Source: Byssovorax sp. (GTDB taxonomy: Bacteria; Myxococcota_A; Polyangia; Polyangiales; Polyangiaceae). Taken from it: a stretch of DNA of 34,095 nt. The stretch covers positions 1 through 34,095 of the forward strand of contig JANYGI010000235.1 in assembly GCA_025362495.1 (NCBI GenBank), in the 5' to 3' direction. The notes under the pieces were generated by a model. That model had not been told where the DNA came from. It worked only from the letters and a program-made list of their open reading frames with translations, and searched no databases. Shown one piece after another: positions 27,502 to 32,873 of this stretch. The first letter of the stretch is position 1. Each line of letters begins with the position of its first letter. Both the position numbers and the translations under genes were made by a program.

Positions 27502-28545
27502 TCAGTTGGTGGTGATCGCCCCCGTGGTGATCGCCTCGAAATCGCCGCCGTGGACCTGCTTCAGCGTGTTGATCGCCGCGTCGTCCCAGCTCGGGCTCGG
27601 CGAGCCGCTCACGTACCAGGCGCTCCCGTTGTCGGCGAGGAACATCCCGTACTTCTTCAGCGCCGTGAGGATCACCTGCATCGATTTCGGGTAACCGCCG
27701 ATGTTGAAGCTGGCCTTGAGCCGGAAGCGCACCCCCATGGGCGGCCGCGTCGAATCGTAGCTCGACGACGCATGGTGGCTCGCGGGGGCGACATACCCGT
27801 GCTGCGTCTTCGGCGCCGTGAAGCGGAGAGCGTGGTTTATCACCCCGGCGGTCACCTCCTCGTAGCGCACGAGCCCGGGATAGATGGGCAGACCCGCGGC
27901 GTCGGCGCTCGTCCACCCCTTCGGGCGGGTCGAATTCTTGGTCAGGTCCCAGATCGCCCCGGATCCCGCGTACCACTGCGCTCCGCTCTTCGCCGCCGCG
28001 AAGAGCTCGTAGAGCCGGCACTCGCCGGTGTGGAACATCAGAATGTGGGCGTCCGACCCGTTCTCGATCGGCGGATTGGCCGGGATCGGGTACGGCCCCG
28101 GATCGCTCTCGGACGCGTAATCGAAGATGACAGTCGACTTCGCGACCGCGGCACCGACCTTGACCGAGGGGATCCCGTACTGCGTCCCGAAATCGGGGTG
28201 CAGCGACGTCGCCGCGCCGATCGTCGCCACGTACGTCGACGAGAGCGGATCGACCGCGGACCCGGAGATGTCCTGGTTCCACCAGTTGTCCGCGGGAAAC
28301 ACCGAGCACGCAGCGCCCGTGCCAGTCCCGGTGCCAGTCCCATGGCCCGGCCAGTGGCCTTTGTAGGCCGCGGATGCGGCTCCGTCCGCGGCCGTCGAGG
28401 CATCGTTGCTCCCGTCGGGCTCGGGGCTCGCGACAGGCTTCGAATCGAGCTCTTCCGCGCTGTCTTGCCCGCTCCCGAAGGCGCACCCCGGGAGGGACAG
28501 CGCCACCAGCATCGCGACGAGGACCGAACGTCGTTGGTTGTTCAT
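27502..28545 (-). CDS. Conserved lipoprotein of unknown function
   Basis: The product has 347 residues. The chosen ATG gives a basic N-terminus and lipobox SLPGC (Cys21); an upstream start would add 27 unlikely residues. A disordered stretch to about residue 80 ends with a Gly-Thr repeat (HGTGTGTGTGA) made from a six-base DNA repeat. The rest is one globular unit with segments I recall from an uncharacterised family in myxobacteria and other bacteria: FPADNWWNQDIS near the start, then FDYASESDPGPYPIP, GSGAIWDL, GWTSADAAGLPIYPGLVRY, NHALRFTAPKTQHGYVAPA and MFLADNGSAWYVSG. The number of conserved Trp, His and Asp residues suggests a carbohydrate-binding or hydrolytic role, but this is not established. 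Confidence 0.92.
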   Translation of the reverse strand: MNNQRRSVLVAMLVALSLPGCAFGSGQDSAEELDSKPVASPEPDGSNDASTAADGAASAAYKGHWPGHGTGTGTGTGAACSVFPADNWWNQDISGSAVDPLSSTYVATIGAATSLHPDFGTQYGIPSVKVGAAVAKSTVIFDYASESDPGPYPIPANPPIENGSDAHILMFHTGECRLYELFAAAKSGAQWYAGSGAIWDLTKNSTRPKGWTSADAAGLPIYPGLVRYEEVTAGVINHALRFTAPKTQHGYVAPASHHASSSYDSTRPPMGVRFRLKASFNIGGYPKSMQVILTALKKYGMFLADNGSAWYVSGSPSPSWDDAAINTLKQVHGGDFEAITTGAITTN

Positions 28546-28828
28546 GCGCCCGAGTCTGGACGACGGAGCACCGCAGTGGAACATCGAATCCCACCGGCAA
28601 GCTCGATTTGAGGTCAGGGCCGGCACGACGACTCGAGATCACATTGGATCCAGATGCGACAGATTCAATATCAGCTCAACTATGCCGCTCCGGGCGGATG
28701 GCCTGCTCATGCGATCTTCAGATAATGTTTCATCGAGAGCGGTAGTCGGTCCCGCGGATCACCATCCGTCGCTTTTCGGCCGAGCGAGGTGCCGTCGCGG
28801 CGAGATCGCCGTAGGATGGGCGCTTCTC
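28546..28828. promoter_or_regulatory. Divergent promoter region, less GC-rich
   Basis: These 283 bases separate two divergently transcribed lipoprotein genes and are visibly less GC-rich than the rest of the window, especially 28640-28740 (GATTCAATATCAGC and CTTCAGATAATGTTTC). GATAAT at 28721-28726 is a good -10 match on the plus strand, though no -35 box stands at the right distance. It probably holds promoters for both genes; no coding frame is supported. Confidence 0.5.
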
Positions 28829-30463
28829 ATGACGACCACCCCTCGAACGCGACGTCGATCCTTGTCCTCGATCCTCTTTCTCGGCCTCTCGGCTCCGCTG
28901 GGGCTCGGCGCCTGCAACGCGATCTTCGGTATCGAGGCGGGCCTGCCCGGCGGCACCTCGGGCACGACCACGACCACGACCACGACGAGCACCGGCAGCG
29001 GCCCGACCTGCGGCGTCGACGCCGGCGAGCCCGCCACGGGCACGGCGATCAAGCTCCGCGTCGGCGCCTCGAACGGCTCGGATCAGATCGACGCGCTCAC
29101 CAGCGATCCCGGCGGCAACCTCGTCGCGGCGGGGTTCTTCGACGGGACGGAGCTCACGCTCGGCTCGTCGCTCGCGCACACCGGCACGCCCGGCGCGCAG
29201 AACGGGTTCGTCCTGAAATACAGCGCGGCGGGCGCGTACACCTGGGGGCAGGCGTTCGGCGGCAGCAAATCGATCCGCCTCAACGCGGCCGGCACCGACG
29301 CCGCGGGCAACATCTACGCGACGGGCAACCTCGCCGGCACCGCCATGTTCGGCACGACGAGCCTGAGCGCGGAGGTCGCGAGCGATCCGACGTCGGACAA
29401 CCCCGACGCGCTCGTTGTCTCGCTCGATCCCGGAGGCGCGGTGCGCTGGGCCAGGCGCTTCGGCAACGAGGACGTCCAGCGCGGCCTGCGCATCGCGGTC
29501 GATCCCGGCGGCGCCACGTACCTCGCCGGGATCAGCTACGGCCAGATCGATTTCGGCGGCGGGCTCATCGGCGACAAGGCCTCGCCGTGGTCGTTCTTCG
29601 TCAAGCTCGACAGCGACGGCAAGCTGGTCTGGGCCCAGCCCATCAGCCACTGGGACGATCTCCTGACGCCGGACAAGATCGAGTACTTCGAGATCGCGAT
29701 CGCCCTCGACGGCAAGGGCCAGGCGATCATCGGGGGGAACTTCACCGATCAGGTTTACTTCGACACGCATGCCGTCACGCCCGTCGGCGGAGCCGACGCG
29801 TTCGTGGCCTCGCTCGACGCGAGCACCGGCGCCGTGAAGTGGCATCAAACGTTCCACCAGCCCTCCGGCGATCCGGCTCTCGATGGTGACCAGTGGATCA
29901 CGGCGTTGACGACGGATCCCTGCACGGGCGACGTCTACGCGGCGGGCGGCTTCACCCAGGGCATCGACTTCCCGTCGCGGGGCGGCGCGAAGATCACGAC
30001 CGGCGACGCGCTCGATCCCGACATGTTCCTCGTCAAGCTCGGGGCGAGCGACGGCGCGCCGCTGTGGTTTCACGCCTACGGCGACACGGGGCGACAGGAG
30101 GCCACGGCGGTGAAGGTCGGGCCGGACGGCTCGGTGGTGCTCGCGGGATTTCTGCTCGACGCCCCGAACGCCGTCGGCGTCGACGTCGGCGCGCCGGTCG
30201 GATTTCTCAAGGCGGCGGAGGTCAACCCCGGCCCCGACTACTACTCGGACGCGTTCGTGCTCAAGCTCGATCCCCTGGGCGATCTGCGGTGGGCCAAGCG
30301 CCTCGGCGATAAGTACGCGCAGGCGGCCTTCGACGTCGCGGTCGATTCGAGCGGGGAAATCGGCCTCGGCGGTATCGTCAATGGCACGCTCGCGATCGGC
30401 GGAGGACAGCCTCCGCTCATGGTCGACGGCTTTCATGCGTTCCTCGCCCGCTTTGATCCGTGA
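28829..30463 (+). CDS. Seven-repeat beta-propeller lipoprotein
   Basis: The product has 544 residues, with a signal ending in lipobox LGAC (Cys29) and the CNAIFGIE start seen in many myxobacterial lipoproteins. A linker of eight Thr follows, encoded by ACGACC repeats. The rest consists of seven similar units of about 65-75 residues, each with a strand such as GGNLVAAGFFDG or AGNIYATGNLAG, then a strand such as FVLKYSAAG and an aromatic W (for example LVVSLDPGGAVRWARRFGN). The last unit ends in FLARFDP, which could close the ring with the first blade. This is the layout of a seven-bladed propeller of the SBBP/quinoprotein type, used for ligand or protein binding. It stands 22 bases before the caspase-like gene and probably shares its transcript. 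Confidence 0.92.
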   Translation: MTTTPRTRRRSLSSILFLGLSAPLGLGACNAIFGIEAGLPGGTSGTTTTTTTTSTGSGPTCGVDAGEPATGTAIKLRVGASNGSDQIDALTSDPGGNLVAAGFFDGTELTLGSSLAHTGTPGAQNGFVLKYSAAGAYTWGQAFGGSKSIRLNAAGTDAAGNIYATGNLAGTAMFGTTSLSAEVASDPTSDNPDALVVSLDPGGAVRWARRFGNEDVQRGLRIAVDPGGATYLAGISYGQIDFGGGLIGDKASPWSFFVKLDSDGKLVWAQPISHWDDLLTPDKIEYFEIAIALDGKGQAIIGGNFTDQVYFDTHAVTPVGGADAFVASLDASTGAVKWHQTFHQPSGDPALDGDQWITALTTDPCTGDVYAAGGFTQGIDFPSRGGAKITTGDALDPDMFLVKLGASDGAPLWFHAYGDTGRQEATAVKVGPDGSVVLAGFLLDAPNAVGVDVGAPVGFLKAAEVNPGPDYYSDAFVLKLDPLGDLRWAKRLGDKYAQAAFDVAVDSSGEIGLGGIVNGTLAIGGGQPPLMVDGFHAFLARFDP

Positions 30464-30485: not shown

Positions 30486-32873
30486 ATGATGGATCGATCC
30501 CGAAGGATGCTCCCGGCGCTGCTCACCGGGGCGCTCCTCGGCTGCGGTGCGCCCTCGTCAGCGATCCCCCGCGCGACCGAGACGGCGGCGGCCGTCCCCG
30601 CGGCGCCCGCGGCGATCGAGGCCTCGCGCTACCACGTGCTCATGGTCAGCGGCGGCGGCGCGCCGTCGATCAACTACGGCTCGCACCTGGTGCACCTCGA
30701 GCGGCTGCGCGCGCTGCTCGTCGCGAGCGGGATCCAGACCGATCACATCGACGTGCTCAGCAGCGACGGCGCCGATCCCGCGCCGGATCTCGTGCAGCGC
30801 GAGGCCCCGCCCGAGGCCGATTTCTGGATGCTCGAGAGCACCCGCGTCGGGCAGCGACTCGACACGCCGATCGAGCTCGTGAGCTCGGCGATCCCCGGCG
30901 TGGCGCTCGCGCCGGCGACGAAGACCAGCGTCGGAAAATGGTTCGACGCCGAGGGGCGCCGCCTCCGCGCCGGCGACGTGCTCCTGCTCTACGTGACCGA
31001 TCACGGCACGCGGCAGAGCGACGATCCGCTCGACAACCGGATCACCCTCTGGGGCAAGGACAAGGAGGCGAGCCTCTCGGTGCGCGAGCTGTCGACGTCC
31101 CTCGGCGCGCTCGATCCCGGCGTCCGCGTCGTGACGCTGATGTCGCAGTGCTTCTCGGGCGGCTTCGGCAAGCTCGCGTGGAGCGCGACCCGCGACGGCG
31201 AGCCCGCGGGCAACGTGTGCGGCTATTTCTCGTCCACGGCCGACCGCCCCGCGTATGGCTGCTTCGCCGAGAACCGCGGCAAAGACGCGGTGGGACACTC
31301 GTTCCATTTCACCCAGGCCCTCGCCGAGAGCGGGCGGATGCTCGACGCGCACGACGCCGTGCTCACCACCGATCGCAGCCCCGACGTCCCGCTGCGCACG
31401 TCGGATCTGTACCTCGAAGATCTGCTCGGAAAGGCGGCCGTCGCCGAGGGTATGAAGCTCCCCACCTTCGCCGATGGCCTGCTGAAGACGGCGCTGCGCG
31501 ATCCCGCGGCGTGGGAGCCGGAGATCCGCTTGATCGATCGCGTGGCGCACGCCTTCGGCTGCTACGGGCCGCGATCGCTGGCCGATCTCGCCGAGCAATC
31601 GTCGAAGCTGCCCCAGCTCGGCGACCAGCTCCAGACGTTCCAGAAGGCCTGGGATACGGCCCTCGCCGACGCCGAGGCGGCCAACCTCGATCGCTTCGTC
31701 GACGCGCGGCCGGCCTGGCTCCCGCGGCTCGGCGACGCGGTGCTGATGGGGCTCGATCAGCCGTCGAAGGACCACGTGCGGGGCGAGCTGCTGGCCGATC
31801 TCGGCCCGTTCACGCGCGCCGATCCGGCCGTGAGCTCGCGGCTCGACTCGCTCCACAGCCGCAGCGCCTCCACCGAAGAGCTCGCGTATCGCATGGAAGT
31901 GCGCCTCGGCGCTCTCTTGCGGATGCGCTCGGTGCTGGTCGACATCGCCGCCAGGAGCTGGCTCGCGACGCGCGGCACCCCGGCGCAGCAGCGGGCCTAT
32001 GCGTCGCTCCTCGCGTGCGAGGATCTCGCGCTGCCGAAGCCGCTCCGGCCCGCGGGAGAGCGCGTCACCGAGGCCGCGCCGTATCCCTCGCTCGATCTGG
32101 ATCTCGAGCTCGCGCACCGCATCCTCCCCGGCTGGATGGGCGTGACGTTCCAGGGCCTGACGCCGGAGCAGCGGCAGAAGAAGCACCTCGCCGAGGGCGC
32201 CTCGATGGTGACCGCGGTGTTCCCCGACTCGCCCGCGAAGACCGCGGGGTTCACCGTCGGCGATATCGTGGTGGGCCCGCCCGGCCTGCCCTTCACGGCG
32301 AAGAACCAGCTCCGCGCCTTCACCATGCTCTCGGCCATCGACACGCCGGCGCCGCTCGACGTGATCCGCGGCGAGGCGCACGTCACGTTGAGCCTCGTTC
32401 CCAAGCCTTTTCCGATGAAGTGGCCCGAGCTGCCCGGGCCCGCGACGGTCGGCACCGCGGCCCCCGACGTCGACGTCACGCCCTATCGAGGCCCGGTGAA
32501 GGCCGACCTCGCGAAGGGCTCGGCGCACCTGCTCTACTTCTGGGCGACGTGGTGCGGCCCCTGCAAAGCCGCCCTGCCCGAGGTCCTCGCCTTCGAGAAA
32601 GAGCGCAAGATCCCGGTCGTGGCGATCACCGACGAGCCGTTCGATCAGCTCGACATCTTCTTCAAGGCGCACCCCATCCCCTTCCCCAAGGCCATCGCCG
32701 TCGACGAGCTGCGGAAGTCGTTCGCGTCCCACGGCGTGAGCGGGACTCCGACGTTCGTCCTCGTCGACGACAAGGGCGTCGTGCGCGGGTACCAGACTGG
32801 CTATCTCGCCAGCAAAGGCCTGGATTTGCCGAGCTGGACCTGGTCGGGGCGAGCCGCGGTGGGCAAGCGATAG
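30486..32873 (+). CDS. Lipoprotein with caspase/legumain-like, PDZ and thioredoxin domains
   Basis: The 795-residue protein has a short signal with lipobox LLGC (Cys20). Residues about 48-280 read as a clan CD cysteine-peptidase fold: RYHVLMVSGGG, the probable catalytic His173 in LLYVTDHGT, and Cys222 in LMSQCFSGG, the His-Gly and Cys spacing seen in legumain- and caspase-type enzymes. A helical region runs to about 540. A PDZ-like domain follows (GWMGVTFQGLTPEQ, FPDSPAKTAGFTVGDIV, 548-640). Residues about 655-785 are a TlpA-type thioredoxin domain with the active site WCGPC (Cys690, Cys693) after LYFWAT and cis-Pro755 in GTPTF. I know of no described protein with this order. The thioredoxin part may reduce a disulfide in a partner, in the peptidase itself, or in the Cys-rich envelope proteins nearby; none of these is shown. 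No clear ribosome site is seen. Confidence 0.93.
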   Translation: MMDRSRRMLPALLTGALLGCGAPSSAIPRATETAAAVPAAPAAIEASRYHVLMVSGGGAPSINYGSHLVHLERLRALLVASGIQTDHIDVLSSDGADPAPDLVQREAPPEADFWMLESTRVGQRLDTPIELVSSAIPGVALAPATKTSVGKWFDAEGRRLRAGDVLLLYVTDHGTRQSDDPLDNRITLWGKDKEASLSVRELSTSLGALDPGVRVVTLMSQCFSGGFGKLAWSATRDGEPAGNVCGYFSSTADRPAYGCFAENRGKDAVGHSFHFTQALAESGRMLDAHDAVLTTDRSPDVPLRTSDLYLEDLLGKAAVAEGMKLPTFADGLLKTALRDPAAWEPEIRLIDRVAHAFGCYGPRSLADLAEQSSKLPQLGDQLQTFQKAWDTALADAEAANLDRFVDARPAWLPRLGDAVLMGLDQPSKDHVRGELLADLGPFTRADPAVSSRLDSLHSRSASTEELAYRMEVRLGALLRMRSVLVDIAARSWLATRGTPAQQRAYASLLACEDLALPKPLRPAGERVTEAAPYPSLDLDLELAHRILPGWMGVTFQGLTPEQRQKKHLAEGASMVTAVFPDSPAKTAGFTVGDIVVGPPGLPFTAKNQLRAFTMLSAIDTPAPLDVIRGEAHVTLSLVPKPFPMKWPELPGPATVGTAAPDVDVTPYRGPVKADLAKGSAHLLYFWATWCGPCKAALPEVLAFEKERKIPVVAITDEPFDQLDIFFKAHPIPFPKAIAVDELRKSFASHGVSGTPTFVLVDDKGVVRGYQTGYLASKGLDLPSWTWSGRAAVGKR

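Follow-up and report, generated by a model that had tools for sequence, protein, structure and literature searches.

The gene at positions 30486-32873 (+) of contig JANYGI010000235.1 from Byssovorax sp. codes for a member of an apparently undescribed family of four-domain proteins. The window, i.e., the whole stretch of DNA that was analysed, comprises 34,095 nucleotides of a genome of 10.84 Mb and ca. 70% G+C. The gene is a single open reading frame (ORF) of 795 residues, running from an ATG at 30486 to a TAG at 32871-32873 with no internal stop. From the N- to the C-terminus its product presents a lipobox-like signal, a clan CD peptidase domain close to legumain (family C13), a helical region, a PDZ domain and a TlpA/ResA-type thioredoxin domain. 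The initial annotation of this DNA had remarked that no described system with such an order of domains was known to it. The full order was covered by none of the Pfam or NCBIfam models, and we found no description of the architecture in the open-licence literature of PubMed Central (PMC). However, the order is shared by a conserved family to which this protein belongs. We tentatively favour the reading that the family consists of active envelope cysteine peptidases, in which the PDZ domain would deal with the substrates while the tethered thioredoxin would reduce the candidate nucleophile Cys222, a putative disulfide between Cys245 and Cys511, or both.

The same order of domains was sought in relatives by using an alignment of 41 rows, which contains the window protein, 27 relatives and 13 sequences from the genomes of family f20. 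All four domains were detected with family profiles in 25 of the 41 rows (among them L183 and L184, that begin at contig ends); the thioredoxin was absent from 12 rows and the PDZ domain from four. In one of the rows without thioredoxin (L188) the helical region and the PDZ domain went undetected as well, and in another relative (L176, G237:C317) a single in-frame stop is found in the helical region, with the PDZ and thioredoxin domains in a second ORF; this may reflect an error, readthrough or a protein made as two chains. The two residues on which the initial annotation had based its peptidase, His173 in TDHGT and Cys222 in SQCFSGG, are both present and kept in 40/41 and 41/41 rows, respectively. 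Cys245 and Cys259 are also found in every one of the 41 rows, and Cys511 in all 40 that cover the site.

The thioredoxin domain can be considered certain from the window protein alone, where the Pfam family Redoxin was matched over residues 655-773 with an expectation value (E) of 4.1e-10 and 40.1 bits (cut-off 26.6). The profile score above the cut-off, the CXXC motif and the cis-Pro residue all indicate the TlpA/ResA type, and the complete TlpA-type domain with WCGPC and cis-Pro755 announced by the initial annotation is indeed there. The CXXC motif was present in 29 of the 30 thioredoxin domains of the family. This count comes from an alignment of 33 rows after subtraction of three stand-alone PDZ-thioredoxin proteins, with the second ORF of L176 and L234 counted among the 30. 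When the window protein was compared with solved structures by phmmer, thioredoxins of the ResA/DsbE type and PDZ domains of the DegP/DegQ type were matched. For the PDZ domain, also pointed out by the initial annotation, the relatives firmed up the weak match of the window protein: at E ≤ 0.1, PDZ_6 was found in 20 of the 22 full-length rows (best 7.1e-8) and PDZ_2 in 16 of them (best 3.8e-11), and the cut-off of 27 was surpassed in L222 (29.1 bits) and L189 (29.6 bits).

The peptidase domain is nearest to family C13. Peptidase_C13 was matched by 25 of the 26 aligned peptidase domains at E ≤ 1 (best 1.1e-10), by 19 of the 22 full-length rows at E ≤ 0.1 and, above its cut-off of 22.8 bits, by one relative (L217, 25.9 bits), while the ten families that these 26 domains matched at E ≤ 1 did not include Pfam Peptidase_C14. 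A profile of the 26 domains found among solved structures, as best single match, GSU0716 (3bij, E 4.8e-7, positions 93-188), which we take to be of the C14 class; human legumain (4aw9) was matched with an E of 3.2e-4 along positions 4-226 of 261, and metacaspase-4 with an E of 0.013. The clan CD fold indicated by the initial annotation is tentatively assigned from this legumain match. A Foldseek search with a low-confidence model of the domain had legumains, ligases or metacaspases as its top eight matches, none of them at E ≤ 0.001, and was given very little weight. In the legumain alignment, Asn63 and His67 are paired with the Asn and the His of NYRH, His173 and Cys222 with the catalytic His and Cys, and Cys259 with a legumain Cys that we counted as C219. 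The S1 pocket of legumain, that binds the Asn of the substrate, includes Arg44, His45, Ser216 and Asp231 (PMC4357240). Because only His45 has a counterpart here (His67), with Arg44, Ser216 and Asp231 unmatched (numbers counted by hand), the domain is best described as C13-like, with a specificity that is not predictable as asparaginyl. A conserved stretch, D296...D300-x-P302...S306-D307, in which D296, D300, P302 and S306 are found in 41/41 rows, may shape the substrate pocket.

The helical region (residues 311-540) did not match any Pfam family. A relationship to chemotaxis receptors was discarded, given that three chains at E 0.08 and worse were treated as chance matches, and a search of solved structures found no link to the C-terminal control domain of legumain. 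In the four-domain family this region ends in LxxLxxCE, which contains Cys511. A similar ending, LLxCE (LxxLLxCE), is found in a sister family of stand-alone proteins made up of the C13 domain and the helical region (for example L139 and L121), in which family profiles detected neither PDZ nor thioredoxin over 71 sister loci. The sister profile (480 positions) aligned over nearly its full length with two four-domain members, those of G299 (22-474) and G460 (25-475), and with the peptidase part or somewhat more of the others. We gathered 60 sister rows, of which 50 carry Cys222, Cys245, Cys259 and Cys511, three end before the site, and one (L142) is not a member as it keeps only the His and Cys columns. 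Another candidate, L144, was also rejected and is missing from the rows of the sister alignment. In the remaining six rows (L122-L127, from genera g19 and g32) position 245 is Val and position 511 is Ala, the tail reads LRAAE, and Cys222 and Cys259 are retained. Because exactly these two of the four cysteines have been lost jointly, we suggest that Cys245 and Cys511 form an interdomain disulfide. The pairing of Cys245 with Cys259 is weakened by the same six proteins, where Cys259 is kept without Cys245; in fact, Cys259 is present in 59/59 sister members. A redox switch that had arrived together with the thioredoxin was rejected, since the same cysteines occur in the sister proteins and in the members devoid of thioredoxin.

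The sister family has another distinctive feature. The calcium-loop-like motif DxDxDG[ILV] (pattern DxDxDGx[ILV], sought over the whole ORF) was found in 46 of the 59 sister members and in none of the 41 rows of the four-domain family. The corresponding columns of L139 (D308, D310, D312 and G313) are conserved in 18-19 of 19 rows, L142 being included in the 19. L139 itself had no NCBIfam match (E ≤ 0.001) and its Pfam match was at chance level only. The resemblance of the DxDxDG motif to EF-hands and dockerins suggests that the sister proteins might be controlled by calcium.

The four-domain family is patchy but wide in its distribution. Searching with residues 42-531, we found matches at E ≤ 0.001 in 29 of the 183 genomes of the same order. 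Five of the 183 (G000, G040, G049, G144 and G085) contain close members, at E 2e-60 or better, and the rest of the matching genomes mostly carry the sister family, without PDZ or thioredoxin. Over the phylum, 43 of 377 genomes matched, 25 of them at E ≤ 1e-30, and 13 families including that of the window were represented. The counts for the phylum are lower bounds, as only four candidates were scored per genome. A scan of genome contigs with patterns derived from a single protein retrieved thioredoxins or PDZ-thioredoxin proteins among the best 80 of 187 relatives, and none of these 80 had the peptidase domain. No relatives were found in viral contigs, nor in phages searched with the peptidase and helical part only, and among the 18 plasmid records those listed (15) matched the thioredoxin part. 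In a quick IQ-TREE tree of the 41 rows, rooted at the midpoint for drawing only, the deepest split had four-domain rows on either side, so that the family probably descends from an ancestor with this architecture. The minimum number of changes over this tree was at least four for the presence of the thioredoxin (three when trusting only the starred branches) and one for that of the PDZ domain.

Cysteine peptidases with the caspase/legumain fold depend on a free thiol, and the bacterial envelope is an oxidising compartment. In the mechanism that we tentatively favour, the peptidase domain would cut with the dyad His173-Cys222, probably helped by Asn63. The helical domain would take the place of the C-terminal control domain of legumain and would probably be tied to the peptidase domain through Cys245-Cys511. 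The PDZ domain would capture or present substrates, as in the HtrA proteases. The thioredoxin, recharged by a DsbD-type membrane reductase, would then keep Cys222 as a free thiol, open the Cys245-Cys511 bond, or do both. One DsbD_TM homologue is found in the source genome and is a possible source of electrons. There are precedents for several of these steps: DsbG, kept reduced by DsbD, protects periplasmic proteins with a single Cys (PMC7089426), the S3 pocket of a plant legumain contains a redox-sensitive disulfide (PMC5995516), and a C-terminal helical domain controls legumain (PMC4357240). Redox control of the peptidase had already been proposed by the initial annotation. It continues to be plausible and now has a candidate disulfide, the redox step itself being what we infer.

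A number of observations weigh against this mechanism. Taken alone, the window protein matched PDZ_2 (residues 550-636, E 4.7e-4, 20.8 bits) under the cut-off of 27, Peptidase_C13 (PF01650, residues 162-273, E 0.051, 13.5-16.3 bits) under 22.8, and the caspase model NF047832 (E 0.016, 14.7 bits) under 140, and the single-sequence model of its peptidase domain had low confidence, with a predicted local distance difference test (pLDDT) of 44 and a predicted template modelling score (pTM) of 0.49. The initial annotation considered the protein to be a lipoprotein. By eye LLGC fits this for the window protein, but a lipobox pattern was found in 3 of 27 relatives (2 of the 27 have no N-terminus, and the pattern used misses the LLGC of the window protein itself). 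Several relatives (L178, L179, L180, L181 and L189) start, as judged by eye, with a very short hydrophobic stretch and no clear signal peptide, so that not every member can be placed in the envelope with certainty. One thioredoxin domain lacks the CXXC motif (L171). The pattern of four cysteines does not depend on the thioredoxin, as it is also present in sister proteins that have none. In addition, the six sister proteins without Cys245 and Cys511 formed one side of a branch in a quick tree of the 59 sister members, with 100 in the Shimodaira-Hasegawa-like approximate likelihood ratio test (SH-aLRT), i.e., their joint loss counts as a single event and gives moderate support to the pairing. 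As to the thioredoxin, its repeated loss counts against an obligatory role. Among the 11 f20 genomes searched (76-97% complete), six (G514, G523, G532, G543, G548 and G551, 76-93% complete) yielded only a thioredoxin-less copy, which together with its absence from 12 of the 41 rows indicates that it is not obligatory. As for the other f20 genomes, in G497, G511 and G554 one paralogue lacks the PDZ domain and another the thioredoxin, G410 combines a full copy with a PDZ-less one, and G507 has a full copy alone; the idea of strictly complementary pairs of paralogues across f20 was abandoned, as only 3 of the 11 genomes have them. Separately, one relative (L189, G375:C60) has Gln instead of the catalytic His, yet it retains the Cys, the PDZ domain and the CXXC motif and could be a pseudo-peptidase, contrary to the activity that we propose for the family.

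A more specific version of the favoured mechanism, which we consider unlikely, is that of a redox-gated latch. Here the Cys245-Cys511 disulfide would hold the helical domain over the active site, in a manner likened to the control domain of legumain; Cys245 would lie beside the substrate pocket and Cys511 where the helical domain ends. Once charged by DsbD, the thioredoxin of the same protein would open the latch and reduce Cys222. The sister family would use its calcium-type loop instead, and three f20 genomes would have the functions of PDZ and thioredoxin divided between cooperating paralogues.

The C-terminal half of the protein bears on the explanation that comes next to the favoured one. 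Many genomes of the class encode stand-alone PDZ-thioredoxin proteins, which match this half with E down to 1.8e-41 (full-length profile). One of them is encoded in the same genome (C19:6388-7086, E 5.3e-37; locus L228:4915-6117, C19), and at least three genomes (G031, G063 and G061) have the C13-type and the PDZ-thioredoxin parts in two different genes. From these two facts, the four-domain family may be regarded as a fusion of two existing modules. The existence of stand-alone proteins also indicates that the PDZ-thioredoxin pair has work of its own. This could be quality control, in which the PDZ domain would capture misfolded envelope proteins, the thioredoxin would break their disulfides and the C13-like domain would cut them, redox acting on the substrates rather than on the peptidase. 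The resemblance of the PDZ domain to those of DegP/DegQ, the independence of the peptidase cysteines from the presence of thioredoxin, and the three of 11 f20 genomes in which the parts are shared by a PDZ-only and a thioredoxin-only paralogue would all fit. However, the cysteine pattern of the protease side provides an internal target as well, and in 6 of the 11 f20 genomes the thioredoxin-less form was the only one found. All in all, we consider quality control rather less than probable.

Two other explanations concern the peptidase domain. Plant asparaginyl ligases and the glycosylphosphatidylinositol (GPI) transamidase are relatives of family C13. The protein could therefore be a transpeptidase or ligase that joins a peptide to an envelope acceptor rather than only cutting it, and peptide asparaginyl ligases were among its weakly matched solved relatives. 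However, with Arg44, Ser216 and Asp231 of legumain unmatched, neither specificity nor ligation can be transferred, and we regard this role as improbable. More improbable still is the caspase-fold scaffold put forward by the initial annotation, i.e., a protein without peptidase activity that would recruit a reductase. The Gln of L189 agrees with it, but His173 and Cys222 are almost invariant over rows that go down to 30% identity with the peptidase domain of the window protein.

Compared with known systems, the peptidase core shares with legumain and family C13 (PF01650) the N..H near the start, TDHG, CxSG, the aligned Cys and the existence of a domain after the peptidase, but differs in the unmatched S1 residues and in that legumain has neither PDZ nor thioredoxin. 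Metacaspases and orthocaspases (C14) belong to the same clan CD and provided the best single structure match, in contrast to the lack of any Peptidase_C14 match among those listed for the 26 domains (E ≤ 1). The words thioredoxin, PDZ, C13 and legumain are all absent from the main text of a survey of caspase homologues in prokaryotes (PMC3501461). The ResA/TlpA/DsbE thioredoxins are the best matches of the C-terminal domain and share CXXC and cis-Pro with it, but stand alone, whereas here the domain is fused to a peptidase and a PDZ domain. HtrA/DegP also combines an envelope protease with a PDZ domain of the DegP/DegQ kind. However, it is a serine protease, unlike the cysteine peptidase of clan CD found here, in which the PDZ domain comes after the helical region and a thioredoxin is added. 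A described NCBIfam family that joins thioredoxin and PDZ, NF041199 (trx7_PDZ_seleno), gave weak matches (window protein E 0.0075, 15.2 bits, cut-off 300; 9 of 22 members at E ≤ 0.1), and its name does not refer to a peptidase. Finally, the sister family shares the four cysteines and the LxxLLxCE ending but showed no PDZ or thioredoxin with the family profiles and mostly carries the DxDxDG motif.

With regard to the neighbouring genes, the propeller lipoprotein ORF described by the initial annotation does end, at 30463, 22 bases before the peptidase gene (Table 1). It matched Lepto_SBBP_lipo with 70.9 bits (cut-off 400). That both proteins constitute one functional unit, as the initial annotation supposed in calling the propeller a possible partner, is highly improbable. 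The short gap and common strand fit the idea, and the two genes are perhaps co-transcribed. However, the ORFs of 60 other fetched loci contained no homologue of the propeller at E ≤ 10 (as controls, four paralogues from the same genome were recovered at ca. 1e-24 or better). In addition, the source genome has 44 stretches that match the propeller gene, counting the gene itself, so that it is one of a large family. The propeller is not a conserved partner of the peptidase protein. The only neighbour recurring in several loci was a radical S-adenosylmethionine (SAM) gene of the KamA family (lysine 2,3-aminomutase-like), found in 8 of the first 40 loci examined (L176, L178, L181, L183, L184, L185, L197 and L202, from genome families f38, f49 and f10), six with members of the four-domain family and two with sister members. 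The assignment was made on L178 (TIGR00238, 233 bits, cut-off 199), and there is no KamA-family gene in the window. Neighbouring genes were called by a custom script, with none called in L186 and L187. On the minus strand of the window, 27505-28545 is a secreted or lipoprotein-like ORF of 347 residues without NCBIfam match (E ≤ 0.001); its longer reading, 27502-28626, had no Pfam match (E ≤ 1).

Table 1. Positions in the window of the four-domain peptidase gene, its domains and key residues, and the gene upstream.
Feature	Positions	Strand	Basis
Whole ORF, C13-like peptidase-helical-PDZ-thioredoxin protein, 795 residues	30486..32873	+	
Signal peptide with lipobox-like LLGC (residues 17-20; Cys20, codon 30543-30545)	30486..30545	+	By eye
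Clan CD, C13 (legumain)-like peptidase domain, residues ~47-310	30624..31415	+	Profile matches; low-confidence fold match
Asn63, aligned with Asn of legumain NYRH	30672..30674	+	Invariant, 26-row alignment
His173, candidate catalytic His, TDHGT	31002..31004	+	Kept in 40/41 rows
Cys222, candidate catalytic nucleophile, MSQCFSGG	31149..31151	+	Kept in 41/41 rows
Cys245, candidate half of interdomain disulfide	31218..31220	+	41/41 rows; lost with Cys511 in sister clade of six
Cys259, aligned with Cys of human legumain	31260..31262	+	41/41 rows; 59/59 sister members
Helical region (read from sequence character), residues ~311-540	31416..32105	+	Alignment
Cys511 in LxxLxxCE, candidate partner of Cys245	32016..32018	+	40/40 rows covering the site
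PDZ domain, DegP/DegQ-like, residues ~545-645	32118..32420	+	Profile matches
TlpA/ResA-type thioredoxin domain, residues ~652-785	32439..32840	+	Profile matches
CGPC redox motif (Cys690, Cys693; WCGPC 689-693)	32553..32564	+	CXXC in 29/30 family thioredoxin domains
Pro755, cis-Pro position, T754-P755	32748..32750	+	Motif and alignment
SBBP/propeller-like lipoprotein gene upstream of the peptidase ORF, ending 22 bases before its ATG	28862..30463	+	

What is new to the bacterial clan CD peptidases is an apparently undescribed family together with a sister family, most of whose members have a calcium-loop-like motif. If the latch existed, reducing power from the cytoplasm would set proteolysis outside it, and in the three f20 genomes the PDZ-only and thioredoxin-only paralogues would have to cooperate. 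The cysteine pattern makes the redox idea testable with a handful of point mutants. The conserved fusion to a thioredoxin would directly answer how a peptidase of this kind stays or becomes active in an oxidising envelope.

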